64,000 bases of DNA from Candidatus Poribacteria bacterium (lineage in GTDB: Bacteria; Poribacteria; WGA-4E; WGA-3G): assembly GCA_022827625.1 (NCBI GenBank), contig JAJEIE010000019.1:310001-374000 (forward strand). The letters are read 5' to 3'. The position numbers and the translations under genes are program-made. The notes beneath the pieces are model-generated. The model was not told the DNA's origin. It saw only the letters and a program-made list of their open reading frames with translations, and made no database searches. This document shows, piece after piece, positions 23,991 through 59,456 of this stretch. Positions within the stretch are counted from its first letter, which is position 1. Each line of letters opens with the position of its first letter.

Positions 23991-24054
23991 ACCCAATAAT
24001 CCGCAGTGCTTTGTTACGCGAATAGCCACGCTATAACCTATAGGGAGGTCCGAA

Positions 24055-24810
24055 GTGAACCATAAATTACGAGTTCTTACGGTTTTGACATTTGTCTTTA
24101 GCTTTTGGGCTATGGGCGTGTCAGCAATAGACGTGACAGAAGGAATTGTCGGTTATTGGCCCCTTGATGGTAATGGAAATGACGAATCAGGTAATGGAAA
24201 CGATGCCAAACTGGAGAAAGGGGCAAAGTGGTCTGATAACGGTTGGGTAAACGGTGCCGTTGAAGTCGACGGTGCTGGTGGACATGTTGTTGTTGATCAA
24301 TCGTTTGAGTTGAAAACGGATAATATTACAGTCGTCGCTCGAATCAACGGTTGGAAAACGATCGACTGGTCAGGCATTGTTGTCGGGCGAAGTGGCACCC
24401 CGTTCTGGATGGGAGTCTCCGCGAGTAACACGCTGACCTATGTCTGGAACAATAACTCCGCAGAGACATGGGGGTGGGTTGGCGCATCAGAAATTCCGCA
24501 AGACAAATGGGCACTCGCAGCGATAGCAATTGACCCCGATAAAGCAACGAGTTACATTTATCACAAAGCATCGGGCAAACTTGATGCGCAGATAAATGAC
24601 ATTGGCCATATTGAGCAGACGGTCATGAACGTAAAATTCGGTTGGGACGAGTGCTGCGGTGCCAGATACTTCAAAGGATTAATCGACGAAGTAATGATCT
24701 ACGATCGCGCCTTGAACGACGATGAGATCGAAAGGTTAGCAACTGTCGGGCTACCTGTTGAGAGTGCCGGGAAACTTGCCATCACTTGGGCATCGCTCAA
24801 ATGGAATTAG
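24055..24810 (+). CDS. Secreted LamG (concanavalin-A-like) domain protein with C-terminal KLxxTW motif
   Basis: 251 residues. Signal peptide about residues 1-25 (cleavage near VSA-ID). One LamG/jellyroll domain follows: GYWPLDGNGNDESGNG, GKWSDN-type strand, and the terminal FKGLIDEVMIYDRAL typical of LamG. These domains bind carbohydrates or mediate adhesion. Start GTG at 24055 with GGGAGG upstream. The last residues GKLAITWASLKWN match the tails of two other secreted proteins in the window. 30 bp upstream of an ABC exporter pair, possibly cotranscribed. Confidence 0.85.
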   Translation: MNHKLRVLTVLTFVFSFWAMGVSAIDVTEGIVGYWPLDGNGNDESGNGNDAKLEKGAKWSDNGWVNGAVEVDGAGGHVVVDQSFELKTDNITVVARINGWKTIDWSGIVVGRSGTPFWMGVSASNTLTYVWNNNSAETWGWVGASEIPQDKWALAAIAIDPDKATSYIYHKASGKLDAQINDIGHIEQTVMNVKFGWDECCGARYFKGLIDEVMIYDRALNDDEIERLATVGLPVESAGKLAITWASLKWN

Positions 24811-47533: not shown

Positions 47534-47782
47534 ATGGCGGAAGATAAATTACTGGCGAGAATGAAAAACAATCCACGCGGGGACTGGCGAATTTCTCATG
47601 TTGAAACACTCGCGAAACGATACGGGTTCTGGATAAGGCGACCTGGAGGTGGAGGAAGTCATGTGACGCTACGCCATGATTCAGGGGCGAGATTGAGTGT
47701 TCCCGCCCGTCGTCCGATTAAACCCGCGTATATTCGGCAGCTCGTTCGGTTAATTGAACATCTGGAGGAGGACGAATCATGA
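47534..47782 (+). CDS. hicA: HicA-like mRNA interferase toxin
   Basis: 82 residues. The HicA fold is marked by GSHVTLRHDSG with the catalytic-type His and ARRPIKPAYIRQLVRLI. Slightly long for HicA because of ~20 N-terminal residues. HicA degrades mRNA and is held inactive by HicB. Its stop overlaps the hicB start by 4 bases (ATGA). It has no space for a ribosome-binding site if transcription starts at the predicted place. Confidence 0.85.
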   Translation: MAEDKLLARMKNNPRGDWRISHVETLAKRYGFWIRRPGGGGSHVTLRHDSGARLSVPARRPIKPAYIRQLVRLIEHLEEDES

Positions 47783-48114
47783 GTGAACTGAAGTACCCAT
47801 TTCTTATGAGCATATTGCCCCCTGAAGAAGGCGACAGTTATTTGAGCAAATTTCCTTCTCTACCAAAGTATCCATTTCTTATGAGCATATTGCCCCCTGA
47901 AGAAGGTGGGGGGTATTTAATCGAATTCCCGGACCTCCCCGGGTGTATGTCTGATGGGGAGACAATTGAGGAAACAATAGAGAATGGAAAAGACGCTGTT
48001 TTTTGCTGGTTAGAAACCGCGAAGGAATTTGGGGATGAAATTCCACAACCCGGCTCTGCCAAAGGATTCAGTGGACACTGGATTCAGCCTGAAGGCATAC
48101 AAGCGGGGACATAA
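47779..48114 (+). CDS. hicB: HicB-like antitoxin with duplicated N-terminal segment
   Basis: 111 residues. Typical HicB: YLIEFPDLPGCMSDGETIEE then AVFCWLETAKEFG. Unlike other HicB proteins the first strand unit KYPFLMSILPPEEG occurs twice, residues 5-29 and 30-54, from a 75-bp in-frame tandem duplication. The HicB fold should use the second copy; the first lacks the DLPGC part. No DNA-binding domain is evident after residue 100. Confidence 0.85.
   Translation: MSELKYPFLMSILPPEEGDSYLSKFPSLPKYPFLMSILPPEEGGGYLIEFPDLPGCMSDGETIEETIENGKDAVFCWLETAKEFGDEIPQPGSAKGFSGHWIQPEGIQAGT
47791..47940 (+). repeat. 75-bp tandem duplication within hicB
   Basis: 47791-47865 and 47866-47940. About 35 bases are identical (CCATTTCTTATGAGCATATT onwards), so the duplication is recent; the later halves have diverged. 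Confidence 0.9.
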
Positions 48115-49732: not shown

Positions 49733-50842
49733 TTATTCTTCGGCTCCCATCTCAGCGGCGACATCTTCTTCAAGCGATTTGACATTCGCTAAAACAGTTG
49801 GATGCGGTTCAATCTCATATACTTTCCGGTACATCTCCAGTGCAGCCGCCTTATCACCAAGGAAACTGGCATAAATTTCACCCATCCGTTCCAATGCCCG
49901 CACCTCTTGCGGATCGAGTTCTACAATGCGTTCGTAGACGCGAAGGGCATTTGCGTACTGACGCGTTTCAAAATCCTCACGTTCGAGCGCAGTCGCGCGG
50001 GCGAAGAGCAGGCGAACGAGATCGTCAACCACTTCGTTCATTTCCGGGTCTTTTTCATGTGCTGCTTCCAGCAAGCGGATTGCTTCTGATTCAAGGCGGT
50101 TGACCTCAGCCAAGTCTTCGTCGGTGAATTCCCGATCGAGAAATTGGTAATCCTGAAGCATTCTTGCGTATGTTCGAGAGAGTTGAAGCCGCGCGAGGAT
50201 ACCGATAGGTGCTTTTTCAGAGGAAATCACTCTCAACTCTGGATCGTTTTCGATGGCTTTACTATAGTATTCAGCCGCGGATTTAAGTTGCTTGCTCCCT
50301 TGATAGAGAACACCGAGGAGATAATATGTTTCGGCGTGATGCGGATCCTTGTTGAGGACTGCAAGAAATTCTTCCGTTGCTTCGCTGAGTAAGCCTTCAT
50401 CTCGGAATAGTTTACCGCGTAAGAGACGGACCCCGGTATGTTCAGGCTGAATGCGTGAAGCGTGTTCAAGTCGTGCCTTGGCATCTTTCAGCCAGCTGCT
50501 GTGCGAATAGATTTCCGCGATACGGAGATTGGCGTGCAGACGGACTTCCGCACTCGATTGTGATTCGCCATTTATGGAGATGTTCTGGTCTTCTCCATCC
50601 GTTTCTAAGGCTTGCAGTGCTTGCCAATAGAAGAGCGCAGCGTCAACAAGGTCTTGCTTTTCAAAGAGAGCGTCTGCCTTTTCAATGAAAGTTGCTACCT
50701 GTGACAACGGTGGTGGTTCAGGTTCGGCACTGCCGCGCCGGATATAGAGTGCCGCAAGCACAACAAAACCGATGACAGCCAGCACTTCGGCATAAAAAAG
50801 CCAACTCCGTAAGGAGAATAGGGATTTTGTATTGAATGGCAT
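49733..50842 (-). CDS. Membrane-anchored TPR protein
   Basis: 369 residues. One N-terminal transmembrane segment (residues ~14-31, AEVLAVIGFVVLAALYI), then a chain of tetratricopeptide repeats, e.g. EATEEFLAVLNKDPHHAETY, LGVLYQGSKQLKSAAEYYSKA and VYERIVELDPQEVRAL. A scaffold for protein assembly in the periplasm is likely. Separated from dsbD by ~150 bp on the same strand. Confidence 0.85.
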   Translation of the reverse strand: MPFNTKSLFSLRSWLFYAEVLAVIGFVVLAALYIRRGSAEPEPPPLSQVATFIEKADALFEKQDLVDAALFYWQALQALETDGEDQNISINGESQSSAEVRLHANLRIAEIYSHSSWLKDAKARLEHASRIQPEHTGVRLLRGKLFRDEGLLSEATEEFLAVLNKDPHHAETYYLLGVLYQGSKQLKSAAEYYSKAIENDPELRVISSEKAPIGILARLQLSRTYARMLQDYQFLDREFTDEDLAEVNRLESEAIRLLEAAHEKDPEMNEVVDDLVRLLFARATALEREDFETRQYANALRVYERIVELDPQEVRALERMGEIYASFLGDKAAALEMYRKVYEIEPHPTVLANVKSLEEDVAAEMGAEE

Positions 50843-50996: not shown

Positions 50997-52853
50997 CTAA
51001 GGTTCACCAATGTTGTTCTCGAGGTCATTAAGAATGCTGAGCATCTCCTCTGGACCGACGAAACCTGTGAATCGCTTGAGAACTTTGCCTTCAGCGTCCA
51101 TGAAAATGACGACCGGTAATCCCGGAATTTGATATTTTGCCGTCAGTGCTTCGGTCGTTTCAGAGCTCCGAGTGAAGTCGAGTTTGACGTTAACATAGTT
51201 ATCAAGTTTTGCAGCGACTGCACGATCAGCATAAGTCTTGTGATCGAGTTCTTTACAAGCGACACACCAAGCGGCATAAAAGTCGAGCATTATGAGTTTG
51301 TCTTCACGTTTAGCGATTTCAAGCCCTTCGGTTTCGTCATAAATCCAATCCAGATGCGGTCCAGCGGGTTCTTGAATACCACCAACAAACATGTAGACCC
51401 CAAGGATAGCCAATAAAAGACCACACGCCTTTTGGAATTGCACACGTCGAGAGATGCCGCTGAAACGTTGTGTCAACTTACCGAGCCACAGCCCAATAAG
51501 TAGTAAACCACCGGCAACGGCAAAAAATGGCACTGAATTCTGGAGGACCTCCTGCAACGGCGGGAATACATCTTTGAGGAAGTAAAGTGCCATCGTAATA
51601 ATGGCGATACCGAAAATATTTTCCAGAACATACATCCATCCGCCTGACCGTGGCAGCGCAGAAAGCAACCCGGAAAAAGTGCCTATACCGATAAAGAGGA
51701 GTCCCATTCCCAGAGCATAGGTGAACATGAGCCAGAACCCAAGAAACAGGCTTCCTGTCGTAGCGATATAAGTGAGTACGACCGCTAACGCCGGTCCCGT
51801 ACAAGGCGCAGCAATCACGCCAGCAACTGTTCCCATGGCGAACGCGCCAGCAAACCCGGTACCGCCAACGGTGTTAAGACGATTCTGCACCGCATACGGC
51901 AACCGAATTTCAAAAACACCGAACATAGACAGTCCCAGAGAGACCAAAATCAGGCTGATAAATCCAACGACCCACGGGTTTGCCATGATCTGACCGAAGA
52001 CGGCACCCGTTGACGCAACGGCAACGCCTAAAATTGAGTAGGTGACGACGATTCCCAGCACATATACAACGGAGAGCAGGAAAGATTTGAAAAGTCCTGC
52101 GGATTCATTAGCACCGAAGATGGAGACGGTAATTGGTATGAGCGGATAAACGCAAGGGGTCAAACTCGTCAAAATGCCACCAGCGAATACGAGTAGCAAT
52201 GCGAGCCATACCCGCCCCCCGGAAAGCGCACTCGCAAGCGTGCCTTCATCACTGCCTGAACTCGGTGGTGCGCCAAATTCAATGTTGGCAAAAACGCCTT
52301 CATGCGTCCGTTGAATCGCCTCTTCTATGCCGACAATTTCAATCGGGACGGTGAAGGCAAGGGTTTCCGGTAATAGACACTGATCGTCGTTACACGCCTG
52401 ATAACGGAGCTGCATATCCAGTGCCACCGGTTCAATCGGAGCATTTTGACTTAAATCGGCTTGGATACCGATCGTGATCGTATCGTGATAAACCGGTGCT
52501 TCCCCAATTGAGCCGAGTTTTAGCACCTCGCCCTTTGGATACACAGCTTCCCCGAAAGCGAGATGTGGTGTATCTGGGAAAAGGATCTCAGTGCCAATAA
52601 GCCCTTCACCCGCCGGATTGGCGTTGACATGCCAACCTTCAGCAATCTCTACGACGACAGCAATTTGGAATTGACTGCCCGGCTGTACTTTGTCAACCGA
52701 AAGGTATCCGCTTGCCGTAAGCTTTTCCACAGGCGGCTCCCTTAGGAGTCCGAAATCGGCGAGTTGTGCCTGTGTGTACGTCGGAAAAGTTATCGCACCC
52801 AGTATCAGCAGGATCCAGAATATAGACTTATGAGGTATAGAATTTTTCAGCAT
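50997..52853 (-). CDS. dsbD: Thiol:disulfide interchange protein DsbD
   Basis: 618 residues. Signal peptide; periplasmic alpha domain (YQACNDDQCLLPETL with its Cys pair); eight-span CcdA-like core with TPCVYPLIPI and IAAPCTGPALA; C-terminal thioredoxin domain with AAWCVACK. It carries electrons from cytoplasmic thioredoxin to periplasmic substrates. All six redox cysteines are present. Full length. 17 bp downstream of the PorX-like gene. Confidence 0.94.
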   Translation of the reverse strand: MLKNSIPHKSIFWILLILGAITFPTYTQAQLADFGLLREPPVEKLTASGYLSVDKVQPGSQFQIAVVVEIAEGWHVNANPAGEGLIGTEILFPDTPHLAFGEAVYPKGEVLKLGSIGEAPVYHDTITIGIQADLSQNAPIEPVALDMQLRYQACNDDQCLLPETLAFTVPIEIVGIEEAIQRTHEGVFANIEFGAPPSSGSDEGTLASALSGGRVWLALLLVFAGGILTSLTPCVYPLIPITVSIFGANESAGLFKSFLLSVVYVLGIVVTYSILGVAVASTGAVFGQIMANPWVVGFISLILVSLGLSMFGVFEIRLPYAVQNRLNTVGGTGFAGAFAMGTVAGVIAAPCTGPALAVVLTYIATTGSLFLGFWLMFTYALGMGLLFIGIGTFSGLLSALPRSGGWMYVLENIFGIAIITMALYFLKDVFPPLQEVLQNSVPFFAVAGGLLLIGLWLGKLTQRFSGISRRVQFQKACGLLLAILGVYMFVGGIQEPAGPHLDWIYDETEGLEIAKREDKLIMLDFYAAWCVACKELDHKTYADRAVAAKLDNYVNVKLDFTRSSETTEALTAKYQIPGLPVVIFMDAEGKVLKRFTGFVGPEEMLSILNDLENNIGEP

Positions 52854-52870: not shown

Positions 52871-54538
52871 TTACCGTGGTTCAAGGACAACACAAGGAAG
52901 AATCATCTCTTCAAGCGAAATGCCCCCATGTTGAAAACTACCGTAGAATAGTTCTTTGTAGACATTGAACTGTTTTTCATAAACGAAATAGTAGTCCTCT
53001 TTCGCGATGATGTAGCTTCTCCCCTCCTCACTACCCGGTAAACGGTAAGTTTCGGGATCTGTGATGAGATATCCAGCATCGGTGTCGTAGGTAATATGTT
53101 TTCCTTCTTTGAACCGTAATCCAGTCGTCAGCGGTGTTTGGCTCGAAATTTTCGACGCATTCTGACAAAGGAGCGAACCGTGGTCAGATGTCAGGACAAC
53201 GGTTATACCACGATCGGCTGCCATTCTGAATATTTTGTAGAGCCAAGAGTGCTGAAACCACGTCTGAACAAGGTCTCGAAATGCCGCTTCGTCCGGGATG
53301 AGCTGCCGGAGTAAATCCGCCTCATACCGTGTGTGGGTCAGCATATCCAAAAAATCAACGACGATCGCTTCCAAACTAATCCGGTCCGTGACGTTGAGCC
53401 ACTGCAAATATTGGGTTTCCCCTTGCGTATCAAAAATTTTGAAATAATGCAACGGCGGTTTGAGCGCGATACCGTGTCGTTCAAATTGTAAGCGTATCAG
53501 TTCTTTTTCGTGCCGGTTAATACTCGTTTGTGCTTTATCGGGTTCTGCGTATAAATGTGGATACCGTTTGGCCAACTCAAGCGGGAACAGTCCACTAAAA
53601 ATAGCGTTTCTCGCATAACGGGTAGCCGTTGGCAAGATGGAATAGTAGTAATGCGTTGTTACGTCGAACATTGGATGTAGCAGCGGCTCGATCTTCAACC
53701 AATGGTCCAACCGCATACAGTCCATAACCACAAACAGTACCTGTTTGCCAGCCTGAATTTCAGGAATAACGTATTTATAGACCACATCCACTGATAGGGG
53801 CGGCGACGCTTGATTCACAAGCCAATCGCTGTAGTTATTTTGAATGTAATTGGCGAATGCGGCGTTTGCCTCCTGCTTTTGCATTGCGTGGATAGCTTTG
53901 AGCTCGTCTACACTATGAAGCCTGTCAAGTTGGAGATCCCACTTGATGAGGTTGATGTAAGTATTGATCCAACTTTGCCAACTGTTGGTGAGATTGTGTT
54001 CTTGGGCGCCTCCGTCCGAAATGTATCCACTGTTAAAGTTTTGAACGTATGCTTGGGGTATGTACAATTCGCGCACTCTCTGCTTTTCAATGAGAAAAAC
54101 GAGTGACGCTGCTAATTGTTTACATAGGACCTTTTTGCAAGCCGCGTCTGGTGGGTTAGCAGGCATTATGAAGATGTTAGTAACATCGTAAAGGCTCGCT
54201 TCTTGTCTTATTTCTTCACCATCTTTGCGGGTTAGGAGTAGAATTGGGATATGGGTATCTAAGTTTCGGATATGCGCGAGTAGATTTTCTTTTCGCGCCG
54301 GTCCATCATAATTCAATAAGACAGCATCATACCGCTGGTCTTTGAGTGCTTTAATGCCATGCGTAGCACTGTTGGCTACAGATACATCGTACCCTTGAGA
54401 CTCCAAAAAGGAAACGTAAGGTTTGGGTGTTACATATATTTGCTTTTCAGAATATCCATCTTCGGTCTCAGCAGTTGCTTGCCGAACATCGGAAACCTCG
54501 TTATCAATCCACAAGATCCTCCCTCTTTTTTCTGTCAT
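52871..54538 (-). CDS. PorX-like protein: degenerate receiver domain plus PglZ/alkaline-phosphatase domain
   Basis: 555 residues. Residues ~1-135 are a response-regulator receiver fold (RILWIDNE, IPILLLTRKD) with an insertion after strand 1. The phosphoacceptor Asp is Asn76 (AVLLNYDGP) and the conserved Lys is Met124 (NIFIMPANPP), so phosphorylation is unlikely. Residues ~210-555 are a PglZ-type phosphatase fold: VVMDCMRLDHW, LPTATRYARNAIFSGLFP and LTSDHGSL. The layout matches PorX, the type IX secretion regulator. Cytoplasmic. 17 bp upstream of dsbD. Confidence 0.85.
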   Translation of the reverse strand: MTEKRGRILWIDNEVSDVRQATAETEDGYSEKQIYVTPKPYVSFLESQGYDVSVANSATHGIKALKDQRYDAVLLNYDGPARKENLLAHIRNLDTHIPILLLTRKDGEEIRQEASLYDVTNIFIMPANPPDAACKKVLCKQLAASLVFLIEKQRVRELYIPQAYVQNFNSGYISDGGAQEHNLTNSWQSWINTYINLIKWDLQLDRLHSVDELKAIHAMQKQEANAAFANYIQNNYSDWLVNQASPPLSVDVVYKYVIPEIQAGKQVLFVVMDCMRLDHWLKIEPLLHPMFDVTTHYYYSILPTATRYARNAIFSGLFPLELAKRYPHLYAEPDKAQTSINRHEKELIRLQFERHGIALKPPLHYFKIFDTQGETQYLQWLNVTDRISLEAIVVDFLDMLTHTRYEADLLRQLIPDEAAFRDLVQTWFQHSWLYKIFRMAADRGITVVLTSDHGSLLCQNASKISSQTPLTTGLRFKEGKHITYDTDAGYLITDPETYRLPGSEEGRSYIIAKEDYYFVYEKQFNVYKELFYGSFQHGGISLEEMILPCVVLEPR

Positions 54539-54708: not shown

Positions 54709-56040
54709 TTAAATACTGGCAATGAACCTCCCTGGATTCAACAAACCGTCTGCATCAAATTTGGTTTTAACCTGTTTCATGAGATGAAGTGTTTTGCCGA
54801 CGGGTCCCCAAACGTCAATGTACCGTTTGAGTTCAGGGGGGGCGCGCTCTATGATAAGATTCCCTTGCACCTCCAGTGCCGATTGACGCAGTGCCGTCAG
54901 CACCTCCGAGAGCGCTTGGAAATCTGTTTCCGAAACTACTGGAATGGTGAGATACAACACACCATTGCCGAGTAACGCCATCATCTGCACATTGTGCGTC
55001 CAACTCGCGCCTATAATATGCTCCGAAAACTCAGCGATGTCGGTTCGTTTCAAGTTTACTTTGACGACGACTCTCTCAGTGTTACCGTTATTTGCTGAAA
55101 ATTCCTGAATGGTCTCTTGAATGTGTTGCTGTGGTTCATCTTCTATGGTTGTCACACCCTTACCGCCATTTTGTTCCATAATTCCTCGGCTTTGCGCCGA
55201 CTGCCACGCCACGGTTTCAGGGTCCCCGCCGAAGCCGGCCACCAACATGAATTTCCCTTGTCCGGGAGTTTCCGGGTGCCTCGGATCGAAATTAATGAAT
55301 AGATTTACGAACATCGGGAGCGTCTGTGAACTAACAATGTTCAAACCTGTATTGACAGCGTTTTGAATGTCCTGAAATTCTGTTGTGACTATTGCTTGTC
55401 GGGTCGGTATCGGCGATAATTTGAGTGCAACTTCGGTGATAATACCCAGTGTTCCGAAGGCACCTATATAGAGTTTGTTGAGATCATATCCGGCGACATT
55501 TTTTACGACTTTCCCACCGCTTTTGACGACAGTGCCATCGGCGTGAACAACTCGCATGCCCAACACCTGATTTCGGGCTGTTCCGTGTCGAAGGCGGAAT
55601 GCGCTACTCGTATTTGTTGCAACAATCCCACCAATGGTACATCGTTCCGCATAAGGTGGGTTGAGTGCCAAAAACTGCCGATGTTTTGCCAACTCCTTTT
55701 GGAGGGCTGCCAAGCGGATACCCGCTTCCACGGTTACGGTTAAATCTGCTGGTTCATACTCGATAACGCTGTTCAGGTGTATTGTTGATAGGACTATATC
55801 TACTTTCTTTGAGAGATTTCCTATGCCGAGTTTCGTGCCTGCACCCGCAGGGATAACCGACAAATCCTGTTTTGCCGCAAATTGAAGGATATCCTGTATC
55901 TCTTGGACAGATGTTGGCAGGACAACTGCCTTCGGAGGGCATCCGTCAATGATATAAGACGCGGATTCTGCCTCTGGCAGGACACCTGAGTTTCCAACAA
56001 TCTGCTTAAGTTCAGCGTGCAAAGCACGTGAATTTTCCAT
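54709..56040 (-). CDS. glcE: FAD-binding oxidase, glycolate oxidase subunit GlcE-like
   Basis: 443 residues, FAD_binding_4 (VAO-type) fold: VLPTSVQEIQDILQF, VIPAGAGTKLGIG, CTIGGIVATNTSS, GGKVVKNVAGYDLNKLYIGAFG, and C-terminal FDADGLLNPGRF. Pairs with GlcD to oxidise glycolate or another 2-hydroxy acid. It starts 14 bp after glcD. The iron-sulfur subunit GlcF normally follows but none is seen downstream within the minus-strand run. Confidence 0.88.
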   Translation of the reverse strand: MENSRALHAELKQIVGNSGVLPEAESASYIIDGCPPKAVVLPTSVQEIQDILQFAAKQDLSVIPAGAGTKLGIGNLSKKVDIVLSTIHLNSVIEYEPADLTVTVEAGIRLAALQKELAKHRQFLALNPPYAERCTIGGIVATNTSSAFRLRHGTARNQVLGMRVVHADGTVVKSGGKVVKNVAGYDLNKLYIGAFGTLGIITEVALKLSPIPTRQAIVTTEFQDIQNAVNTGLNIVSSQTLPMFVNLFINFDPRHPETPGQGKFMLVAGFGGDPETVAWQSAQSRGIMEQNGGKGVTTIEDEPQQHIQETIQEFSANNGNTERVVVKVNLKRTDIAEFSEHIIGASWTHNVQMMALLGNGVLYLTIPVVSETDFQALSEVLTALRQSALEVQGNLIIERAPPELKRYIDVWGPVGKTLHLMKQVKTKFDADGLLNPGRFIASI

Positions 56041-56054
56041 GCGCTTTCTTTCTC

Positions 56055-57488
56055 CTAAACCGGCCTCACTGCGTCGTGTTCCAGACCGAGTTTCGCATAA
56101 GATTCAGCGGTCGGGAATATCTTACCTGGATTGCAGAGCCCAGTCGGGTTAAAGATGCTTTTGACCGTTGCCATTATTTGCAAATCTGCAGGACTGAAAA
56201 TCAGGGGCATGTAGTCCATCTTCTCAACACCGATGCCGTGTTCTCCAGTGATTGTGCCACCGACTTCAGCGCATACCGTCAAGATTTCCTTGTTGACGTG
56301 TTCTACACGTTCGCATTGGTCAGCGTCGCGTTCGTTAAAGAGAACGATCGGGTGGATGTTACCGTCACCGGCATGAAATACGTTGGCAATCGGAATCTGA
56401 TATTTTTCGGAGATTTCGGAGATACGGCGCAGGACCTTCGGCAGCGTCGTCCTCGGAACGACTCCATCTTGCGTGATATAGTTCGGTGCGAGCCGTCCGA
56501 ATGAACCGAACGCACTTTTCCGTGCCTTCCAGAGTTCCTGCCGTTCTGTCTCATTTTTGGCGTAACTCACATCCCGGGCGTTGTTCTGTTTGAAAATCTC
56601 TAAAATCTGTGCTGTCTGGTTCTGCATACCTGCTTCAATGCCGTCGAGTTCCACAATCAAGATGGCTTCAGCATCAAGTGGAAAACCGAAGTGGAATGCC
56701 TCTTCTAACGCGCGAATCACGAGACTGTCCATCATTTCGAGCGCAGCGGGAATAATGCCTTCACCAATGATCGTTGAGACTGCGTTGGAGGCGTCGTCCA
56801 TCGTTTCAAAAACTGCGAGCGCAGTCTGATACGCTTGCGGATTACGGGTGAGACGGACAACGGCTTTCGTCACTATCCCGAATGTACCTTCGGAGCCGAT
56901 CATCACACCCCGGAGATCGTAGCCGATTGTATCTTCGACACTGCCACCGAGTTCAACAATCTCGCCATCGGGTAAAACGACTTCCAGTTCAAGCACATGG
57001 TCGGATGTGACACCGTATTTCAAGGTATGCGGTCCACCAGAATTTTCGGCGATATTGCCACCGATTGTGCATGCCTTTTGGCTTGACGGGTCTGGCGCGT
57101 AATGATAACCCTTGTTTTGAACCGCCTGCGTTAGCAACAGATTAACGACACCGGGTTCAATCACGGCTCGTTCGTTTTCAAGATCTATCTCTAAAATACG
57201 ATCCATGCGATTGAGGGCAATAATGATCCCACCTTGAACAGAGAGCATACCACCACTCAAACCTGTGCCGCCCCCGCGCGCGATAAACGGTACACCGTAT
57301 CTATTCGCCAACTTCACGATATCCGACACCTGTTCTGCTGTATCTGCGAAGACAACGATATCCGGCATCGCCTTAAAAGACGGCGCCGCATCACATTCAT
57401 ATACCGATAAAGCCGTCGGATCCGTTAGAACATTTTTAGGACCCAAAAGCGTAGAGAGGTCGGCAACAATTTGTTCTTTTTGATCCAT
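56055..57488 (-). CDS. glcD: FAD-binding oxidase, glycolate oxidase subunit GlcD-like
   Basis: 477 residues. FAD-binding VPFIARGGGTGLSGGMLS, CTIGGNIAENSGGPHTLKYG, GSEGTFGIVTKAVVRL, and the metal/FAD site FHAGDGNIHP with ITGEHGIGVEK. Oxidises glycolate or D-lactate-type substrates to the keto acid. Upstream of glcE in one transcript. D-lactate dehydrogenase is an alternative. The 320-bp region before it contains two palindromic repeats and no gene. Confidence 0.9.
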   Translation of the reverse strand: MDQKEQIVADLSTLLGPKNVLTDPTALSVYECDAAPSFKAMPDIVVFADTAEQVSDIVKLANRYGVPFIARGGGTGLSGGMLSVQGGIIIALNRMDRILEIDLENERAVIEPGVVNLLLTQAVQNKGYHYAPDPSSQKACTIGGNIAENSGGPHTLKYGVTSDHVLELEVVLPDGEIVELGGSVEDTIGYDLRGVMIGSEGTFGIVTKAVVRLTRNPQAYQTALAVFETMDDASNAVSTIIGEGIIPAALEMMDSLVIRALEEAFHFGFPLDAEAILIVELDGIEAGMQNQTAQILEIFKQNNARDVSYAKNETERQELWKARKSAFGSFGRLAPNYITQDGVVPRTTLPKVLRRISEISEKYQIPIANVFHAGDGNIHPIVLFNERDADQCERVEHVNKEILTVCAEVGGTITGEHGIGVEKMDYMPLIFSPADLQIMATVKSIFNPTGLCNPGKIFPTAESYAKLGLEHDAVRPV

Positions 57489-57760: not shown

Positions 57761-57808
57761 TATAAAATCTGATACAATTTGCCAAAATTCACTTATGGAG
57801 GGACAAAA

Positions 57809-58588
57809 ATGCGAAAATTGATCTTAGTTTTAGGGGTTATCTGTTCTGTTGTTTGGACACTACCACAATTCTGCGCTGCTGCAATTGATCCTGAAACAGC
57901 AGTCGGTGTCTGGCTCTTTGATGAAGGTGCCGGTAAAACAACCAAAGATGCTTCGGAATTCGGACATGATGGCACAATCAATGGTGCCAAGTGGAAAGAC
58001 GGAAAAATCGGCAAAGGGCTCGAGTTTGATGGCGCGCAGTGGGTGTCAATTGACTCAACACCGGAACTGCAGCTCGGTGACGAACTCACGATGATGGCGT
58101 GGTTTTATGCTACCGATATTTCTACTTGGAGACAACTCATTGCGAAGAGTAACGAATATCTCTTACGCATTGATCCGCCGCAGGAAGGCAATAGAATGTC
58201 CGCATTCGTCAAACCGGGTGGAAGTTGGGAACCGAGAGCCTCCTCACGCGTTCCTGATGAGAAAACATGGATCCATTTTGCTGCGACTTACGACATCAAC
58301 GAGAAGACTGAACAACTCGTGGTATATGTCAACGGTGTGAAAGCCGGTGTGAGCACACGTCCCGGGAAAACCGCTGTTACAGCAAATCCCGTCGAGATTG
58401 GTAAATGGGGCGGTGGTTCATACTTCGTCGGTATCATTGACGAAGCCGCCATTTTCAATACGGTTCTCAGTGAAGACGATCTGGCAACGATTGTGGAACA
58501 CGGATTAGCAAAAGCACTCGGTGGATTGGATGTTGAACCGTTAGATAAACTGGCGGTGACATGGGGTGCCCTCAAAGCAAATCGGTAA
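57809..58588 (+). CDS. Secreted LamG domain protein with C-terminal KLxxTW motif
   Basis: 259 residues. Signal peptide ~1-24 (cleavage near CAA-AI). LamG domain: VWLFDEGAGKTTKDASEFG, GKGLEFDGAQWVSID, MMAWFYATD, IHFAATYD, and YFVGIIDEAAIFN. Carbohydrate binding or adhesion is expected. ATG at 57809 is preceded by GGAGGG at 57796-57801. The C-terminus LDKLAVTWGALKANR matches the other two secreted proteins here. A third follows 127 bp downstream. Confidence 0.87.
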   Translation: MRKLILVLGVICSVVWTLPQFCAAAIDPETAVGVWLFDEGAGKTTKDASEFGHDGTINGAKWKDGKIGKGLEFDGAQWVSIDSTPELQLGDELTMMAWFYATDISTWRQLIAKSNEYLLRIDPPQEGNRMSAFVKPGGSWEPRASSRVPDEKTWIHFAATYDINEKTEQLVVYVNGVKAGVSTRPGKTAVTANPVEIGKWGGGSYFVGIIDEAAIFNTVLSEDDLATIVEHGLAKALGGLDVEPLDKLAVTWGALKANR

Positions 58589-58630: not shown

Positions 58631-58715
58631 AACCCAAGTTGCTACTCACAAGACTTTGGGTATCATGCTACAAACATGACAACGTTACAATAGCAAACAT
58701 TAGGGAGGTTTGGCT

Positions 58716-59456
58716 ATGAAAACGTCTATGATTCTGGTATGCGGAGCCCTTATGTTCGTCTTCATCATAGGAGTGTCTGCGGGGGTATGGACAGACCCGT
58801 TTGATGGTGATGAACCCGTTGAAGGCTGGGAATTCCGGGACTATCGCGACAAGGTTACAACCTTTGAAGTCAAAGACGGCTTCTTACAGATGACCAATCC
58901 AAACGGTGGGTGGGGGCATACAACCCCTGACAAACCGATGCTTGAACGGGAAATCCCCAAAAGTGCCGCGAAAAATATAACAGTGAGCGGGATTTTCTCT
59001 ACTGAACCCGATACACCTGCGGATTCGTGGATCGGTATTTTCCTTTACAGTGACGATGACATGAACTACGCCTGTTTACTGTTTGGTGGCGAAGCCAATC
59101 AACCGCAGAAAACGCTCATCGGTAGTATGGTTGAAGCCAATTGGCAAGACAAAGGACACTTCCAGACCGGTTTTGATGTTCCGCTTCACCTCAAAATCGT
59201 CAAAGAGGACGATCTCTTCTCGGGTTATTATCGAGAGAGCGAAAAAGATGAATGGGAACTCTCTGGAGACAAGACGTGGAACCATAAGTTTGATGTCGAA
59301 CGCGTCGGGATCGGTTTCATGAACAGTTGGGGTGGCAAAACGGTTACCTTTCTTGTCGATACACTTTCTATTGAGGGCGAAGGTATTGAGCCTTTGGCAG
59401 TTGATCCAACGGGTAAATTGACGGCAACATGGGGTGCCCTTAAAACGGCTCGATAA
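58716..59456 (+). CDS. Secreted jellyroll-type protein with C-terminal KLxxTW motif
   Basis: 246 residues. Signal peptide ~1-22, then a beta-rich domain that resembles concanavalin-A-like/DUF1349-type folds (PFDGDEPVEGWEFRD, WIGIFLYSDDDMNYACLLF, LHLKIVKEDDLFSGYYRES). It is not a standard LamG but likely also a carbohydrate-binding jellyroll. ATG at 58716 has GGGAGG at 58702. C-terminus TGKLTATWGALKTAR. A hairpin follows at 59544. Confidence 0.8.
   Translation: MKTSMILVCGALMFVFIIGVSAGVWTDPFDGDEPVEGWEFRDYRDKVTTFEVKDGFLQMTNPNGGWGHTTPDKPMLEREIPKSAAKNITVSGIFSTEPDTPADSWIGIFLYSDDDMNYACLLFGGEANQPQKTLIGSMVEANWQDKGHFQTGFDVPLHLKIVKEDDLFSGYYRESEKDEWELSGDKTWNHKFDVERVGIGFMNSWGGKTVTFLVDTLSIEGEGIEPLAVDPTGKLTATWGALKTAR

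Follow-up and report, generated by a model that had tools for sequence, protein, structure and literature searches.

The porXB locus

The window (the whole stretch of 64,000 nucleotides of Ca. Poribacteria DNA that was analysed) carries at 52871..54538 on the minus strand a gene for a protein of 555 amino acids, a PorX-family paralogue with a pseudo-receiver that we call porXB. Its product is matched by the model NF052313 (T9SS_RR_PorX) with 454.6 bits at a cut-off of 300, which places it in the PorX family, and a PDB search returned PorX entries as top matches (E 8.6e-89). A preliminary description of this DNA had likened the PglZ half closely to PorX, and both searches bear this out. Poribacterial relatives reach up to 95% identity.

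The AlphaFold2 model of the product (mean pLDDT 82.9) is divided into three parts, all on the minus strand: a receiver domain (residues 1-150; 54089..54538), delimited with PF00072, the model and PDB structure matches, a helical linker (residues 160-262; 53753..54061), visible as helices in the model, and a PglZ (alkaline-phosphatase-like) domain (residues 263-555; 52874..53752; PF08665, 58.9 bits). PF00072 scores 26.9 bits on the receiver, under its cut-off of 30.2. The receiver half of the model matches PDB receivers, e.g., KdpE (4l85) with Z 16.9 and an rmsd of 1.6 Å over 112 residues, and the (beta-alpha)5 fold is thus predicted to be kept. In the PglZ domain all catalytic and zinc residues are present (D273, T306, D398, H402, D452, H453, H537). 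Compared with PorX chains, the whole model reaches Z of about 51 over about 500 residues at an rmsd of about 7-8 Å, and this large rmsd suggests that the relative domain placement, as modelled, differs from PorX.

The gene is embedded in the conserved order glcD-glcE-porXB-dsbD-TPR, again on the minus strand. dsbD (50997..52853) follows 17 bp downstream and precedes a gene for a TPR protein (49733..50842), while upstream we find what we take to be a glcE-like FAD-binding protein (54709..56040) and a glcD-like oxidase subunit (56055..57488). Counted over 65 loci of porXB orthologues (termed B; L043 and L143 left out), glcE adjoins porXB in 64 and dsbD in 63, which extends the earlier remark that the gene lies next to dsbD. 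The exceptions are L089, with neither glcE nor dsbD in its short stretch, and L041, which is without dsbD. Further along the window, a HicA/HicB-like toxin-antitoxin pair is encoded at 47534-48114 on the plus strand, with HicA under its cut-off; near the start of the HicB-like protein, the 13-residue segment YPFLMSILPPEEG is present twice.

An intact paralogue, PorX-A

The preliminary description had proposed to look for a second, intact PorX in the genome, and such a gene is indeed present on a different contig (G000:C30:219068-220579). This paralogue, PorX-A, is about 43% identical to porXB and has a histidine kinase on one side and RNase E/G on the other; among 42 loci, the kinase adjoins it every time and RNase E/G in all but two. 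The kinase-PorX-RNase E/G order (e.g., L053:4324-9201) is conserved in Poribacteria for PorX-A, and the proximity of RNase E/G to an oligonucleotide-cleaving regulator may be meaningful. Also in other phyla, a kinase is located directly upstream of PorX in 16 of 27 cases. Neither the 20 B loci L079-L098 nor the neighbours of porXB in the window gave a histidine kinase that matches the one beside PorX-A.

Receiver switch residues

In an alignment of 138 rows, obtained from 190 similar ORFs by identity over the last 480 residues, the five conserved receiver residues correspond in porXB to D12, N13, N76, T103 and M125. Asn13 (54500..54502) stands at the second metal-binding Asp of PorX, Asn76 (54311..54313) at the phosphoacceptor Asp and Met125 (54164..54166) at the conserved Lys. 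Besides one acidic residue only the switch Thr103 (54230..54232; all on the minus strand) is retained, so that the phosphotransfer set DD, D, T, K is incomplete. Asn76 had already been assigned to the phosphoacceptor position, where all 44 other poribacterial rows and all 27 rows of foreign phyla indeed have Asp. The Met for Lys replacement is likewise real, except that the residue is number 125 and not 124 (IFIMPA begins at residue 122), and the loss of the second metal-binding Asp at Asn13 has to be added to the earlier list. With Asn76 in register, there is no other Asp at the phosphorylation site; a displaced Asp as simple refutation was thus rejected, and Asp78 is the only substitute candidate. 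The earlier claim that this receiver is not phosphorylatable by the usual chemistry is supported. A pseudo-receiver is described as a receiver fold without at least one of the five conserved residues, and an ALR as one without the Asp (PMC12632262); porXB is both.

The beta1-alpha1 loop carries an insert (residues 15-38; 54425..54496, minus strand) seen in the alignment and in the pLDDT values, which are below 50 and predict disorder. The stretch measures 25 residues compared with 5 in normal PorX; the insertion noticed before is thus genuine, with a net size of 20 instead of about 17 residues. Residues 130-139 form a second, small insert relative to the other paralogue. At residue 78 (54305-54307), two past the lost acceptor, 52 of 56 family rows have an acid (Glu in 14) and the other four Asn, while this position is mostly hydrophobic in normal PorX and non-acidic in PorX-A and the rows of other phyla. 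None of the 10 order-level B rows is acidic here, and the acceptor Asp is missing in 7 of these.

Distribution, duplication and selection

According to the genome table, 67 of 84 genomes of the phylum have B-type genes: 37/38 in the genus (one partial), 19/20 in the rest of the family, 10/14 among order-mates outside the family and one at class level; nearly all of them also have PorX-A. B loci were taken from 65 of these 67 genomes (G082 and the partial G022 copy were left out), G024 contributes two B copies, and the B rows further include L143, taken from a named record. The two copies in the G024 bin (L006, L050) are 84% and 68% identical to the copy in the window; mixed binning is likely, since L050 is very close to L024 of another genome.

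None of the 66 distinct B rows has all five receiver residues. The acceptor Asp is missing in 63, and the three order-level rows retaining it are without the second metal Asp. The receiver is intact in all 44 other poribacterial rows and all 27 rows of other phyla (Latescibacterota, KSB1, Eisenbacteria and others), and the seven catalytic PglZ residues are complete in every row of the three groups; the stop-interrupted L043 was excluded from these counts. Because the 27 rows were drawn from the best 80 of 545 loci, a pseudo-receiver PorX may exist outside Poribacteria. Judged by these rows, the receiver loss in porXB is a property of the lineage and not a sequencing oddity. In titles and abstracts, with subscription papers mostly outside the coverage, no PorX with a degenerate receiver was recognisable.

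In trees calculated from linker and PglZ columns only, i.e., without receiver columns, B forms one clade. A first tree of 109 rows, thinned at 95% identity from 137 (without L043), supports it with an SH-aLRT of 100; in a second tree of 56 hand-picked rows, support is 100/97 for B alone and 100/100 together with the deep orthologue L043. L043 is the sister of the B clade, shares the glcE neighbourhood and has an intact receiver (DDE, D, T, K). Among the B orthologues it alone has kept the receiver whole, and its reading frame (L043:4505-6118) contains one in-frame TGA, either a sequencing error or a real break. Since the deeper orthologue is intact, the switch decayed after the duplication. 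A fewest-changes count gives two changes in the presence of the acceptor Asp, four for the second metal Asp and one for the Lys. Most likely, then, the duplicate settled with its receiver still intact, and the decay followed later in several lineages, suggesting that phosphorylation had ceased to be needed early on.

Selection has nevertheless not released the domain. Among 8 genomes (28 pairs each; dS often close to saturation and in some cases undefined), dN/dS of the receiver ranges, where defined, from 0.08 to 0.35 in B versus 0.03-0.09 in A, and that of PglZ from 0.03 to 0.11 in B versus 0.01-0.08 in A. With values well below 1, these comparisons indicate that the porXB receiver is still under selection.

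Type IX secretion context of the genome

The genome encodes a relative of the SprA/Sov translocon of 2257 amino acids (145 bits at a cut-off of 200, in 4 stretches), an assignment based on this sub-cut-off NCBIfam match and on the occurrence of a match to the SprA model in 60 of 60 genomes, one of them above the cut-off; a phmmer search of the protein against the PDB gave no match. A PorU-type sortase of 2090 amino acids (385 bits at a cut-off of 420) adjoins a PorV-family protein and matches PorU in the PDB (E 2.9e-33). These outer-membrane genes are located at L199:4470-11243 (SprA relative) and L208:2615-10038 (PorU-type sortase beside PorV-family protein), both on the minus strand. Additionally, there are three C25 peptidases, 16 PorV-family matches (7 above cut-off) and 52 Por_Secre_tail domains for type IX sorting. 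The search for core genes suggested in the preliminary description was hence positive for SprA, PorU and PorV relatives, whereas models for the motor genes GldM (PF12081, TIGR03517), GldL (TIGR03513) and GldN (TIGR03523) found no match; as the positive controls were silent or, in one case, gave only a sub-cut-off signal, this result makes no claim of absence. A PorW/SprE model was set aside after matching 12 of 14 control genomes, probably via TPR repeats.

To our knowledge, Poribacteria are uncultured. A single-cell study of 2014 described type IX sorting domains in Poribacteria and did not find structural genes (PMC3909097), and in the part of the literature on Poribacteria and type IX or Por secretion that was accessible we noticed no report of them, although one may exist. 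By the model matches given above, the genome analysed here has, beyond the sorting domains of that study, relatives of the translocon, the sortase and PorV. The preliminary description had separated the gene from type IX secretion because of its neighbours; this inference is weakened by the three kinds of relatives and the 52 sorting domains, so that a role for porXB in type IX secretion is possible. Several proteins share a tail of the form K-L-x-x-T-W-(G/A)-x-L-K (window 24037-24810, 57773-58588 and 58704-59456; L199:11695-13107), some of them with LamG, and this tail may serve as a sorting or anchoring signal.

Discussion

The sequences themselves show to which family porXB belongs, that its switch has decayed and its catalytic site is intact, that it is under selection and which genes are its orthologues. 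Based on these data, the interpretation towards which we lean, slightly beyond an even chance, is that porXB encodes a zinc phosphodiesterase acting on (cyclic) oligonucleotides, an old PorX duplicate working outside the control of a histidine kinase. We infer its substrate and activity, and likewise the zinc gating and the biological output discussed below. An old duplicate of the kinase-linked PorX would have been placed between glcE and dsbD with no kinase alongside. The receiver would then have lost its phosphotransfer chemistry stepwise, the metal Asp or the phosphoacceptor at first and the Lys later, with the fold kept and PglZ intact. Since the receiver is not phosphorylatable by the usual chemistry and the PglZ site is complete, control of porXB must differ from PorX, as had been concluded before. 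Candidate inputs would be zinc occupancy together with dimer formation via the enzyme half, the level of its expression together with dsbD, or a ligand or partner bound by the receiver in its remodelled form, of which zinc and expression are favoured.

This interpretation fits to the described biochemistry of PorX. In PorXFj of Flavobacterium johnsoniae, phosphorylation or zinc each gives dimerisation, and activity requires zinc and the PglZ site (PMC11320123; PMC10951265); zinc alone drives dimerisation, including that of D54A, and hydrolysis of bis-pNPP persists in a construct from which the receiver is missing (PMC11320123). In Porphyromonas gingivalis, D58A loses secretion only in part (PMC11320123). 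The zinc and catalytic residues of the PorXFj PglZ domain are T271, D237, D414, H415, H364, H499 and D360 (PMC10951265), with residue roles also given in PMC11320123, and PorX as well as BREX PglZ are reported to cleave cyclic and linear oligonucleotides (PMC12205998; PMC12839542). By analogy, a PorX without acceptor need not be dead, and porXB could be a zinc-dependent phosphodiesterase free of kinase control. The Ser of the PglZ-PglZ interface (S388 of PorXFj; position 426 here) is found in 43 of 44 A rows, 24 of 27 rows of other phyla and one of 66 B rows, and with this loss porXB may not assemble into the zinc dimer described for PorX. A further step, speculative and in our opinion rather doubtful, would be that PorX-B is a kinase-free arm of cyclic-oligonucleotide signalling in Poribacteria, in which a permanently licensed, zinc-gated phosphodiesterase sets the background of the messenger controlled by the kinase-driven PorX-A and thereby tunes type IX secretion of the numerous surface proteins of these symbionts of sponges.

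Alternatively, porXB could act only as a partner of PorX-A in a mixed dimer, with the pseudo-receiver tuning the kinase-controlled paralogue. This would agree with the near-constant presence of A in the 67 genomes with B, with the intertwined dimer formed by PorX (PMC10951265; PMC11320123) and with the precedent of the WhiI/BldM heterodimer (PMC12632262). However, the two proteins are only about 43% identical, are encoded on separate contigs and differ in the interface Ser, and several residues fixed in B against A (T304, E374, G473) equally fit an insulation of both, so that we regard the mixed dimer as unlikely. The idea of the preliminary description that the receiver has turned into a ligand-binding domain, where a small molecule gating PglZ is bound by a neutral pocket and by the insert covering the former active site, draws on the position of the insert in the beta1-alpha1 loop beside this site and on several pseudo-receivers described to bind ligands (PMC12632262). 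It is quite improbable, considering that the insert is predicted to be disordered and is missing from order-level relatives already without the switch, and that the Lys column varies within the genus (M, I, V, T, E, A, S, G), unlike one common ligand site.

The conservation of an acid at position 78 counts against our main interpretation, as it makes a shifted acceptor or metal site conceivable: the acid is confined to the family, and in PorXFj the backbone of the equivalent residue binds metal (PMC10951265). Yet 14 of the 56 family rows have Glu and four have Asn at this position, the Mg-binding Asp and the Lys are gone too, and the order-level B rows have no acid there, although most of them have lost the acceptor. 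Phosphorylation or metal binding in a new way via Asp/Glu78 is therefore very unlikely. Finally, many of the genomes are metagenome bins and the deep orthologue L043 has an in-frame stop, which would be compatible with a decaying gene or an assembly artefact. We reject this explanation as highly improbable on the basis of 66 distinct open rows, the fixed gene order, the low dN/dS and the invariant catalytic heptad, single-contig genomes included.

In a review of 2025, the on/off control of bacterial pseudo-receivers is called a mystery (PMC12632262). Within one phylum, porXB and its orthologues offer a graded series from an intact receiver (L043) via single losses at order level to the near-complete loss with a loop insert in the genus, fused to a kind of enzyme that can be assayed with bis-pNPP and accompanied by the intact sister PorX-A in the same cell. 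This combination makes the question of pseudo-receiver control directly testable, and the sponge-associated Poribacteria thereby provide in porXB a natural test case for the control of a signalling enzyme that has lost its phosphate switch.

Among known systems, BREX PglZ shares the PglZ domain with porXB (NF033449, 86.4 bits; 9zn5, Z 23.1), but the N-terminal half is different. BREX membership was rejected with a score far from the NF033449 cut-off of 250, and no BREX genes were found among the near neighbours. In comparison with known pseudo-receivers and ALRs, the output of porXB is a PglZ enzyme, and the main text of two pseudo-receiver reviews does not contain the word PglZ. Like PorX-A of its own genome, porXB has the same set of domains; unlike porXB, PorX-A combines these with an intact receiver and a place between histidine kinase and RNase E/G. 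A further close system is the PorX of P. gingivalis and F. johnsoniae (NF052313; PDB 7pv7, 7pva, 7pvk, 8p6f, 8ted), with which porXB shares the order of receiver, helical linker and PglZ, 33% identity and all catalytic and zinc residues, and from which it differs in the loss of phosphoacceptor Asp, second metal Asp and Lys, in the loop insert, in the altered interface Ser of PglZ and in having no adjoining kinase.
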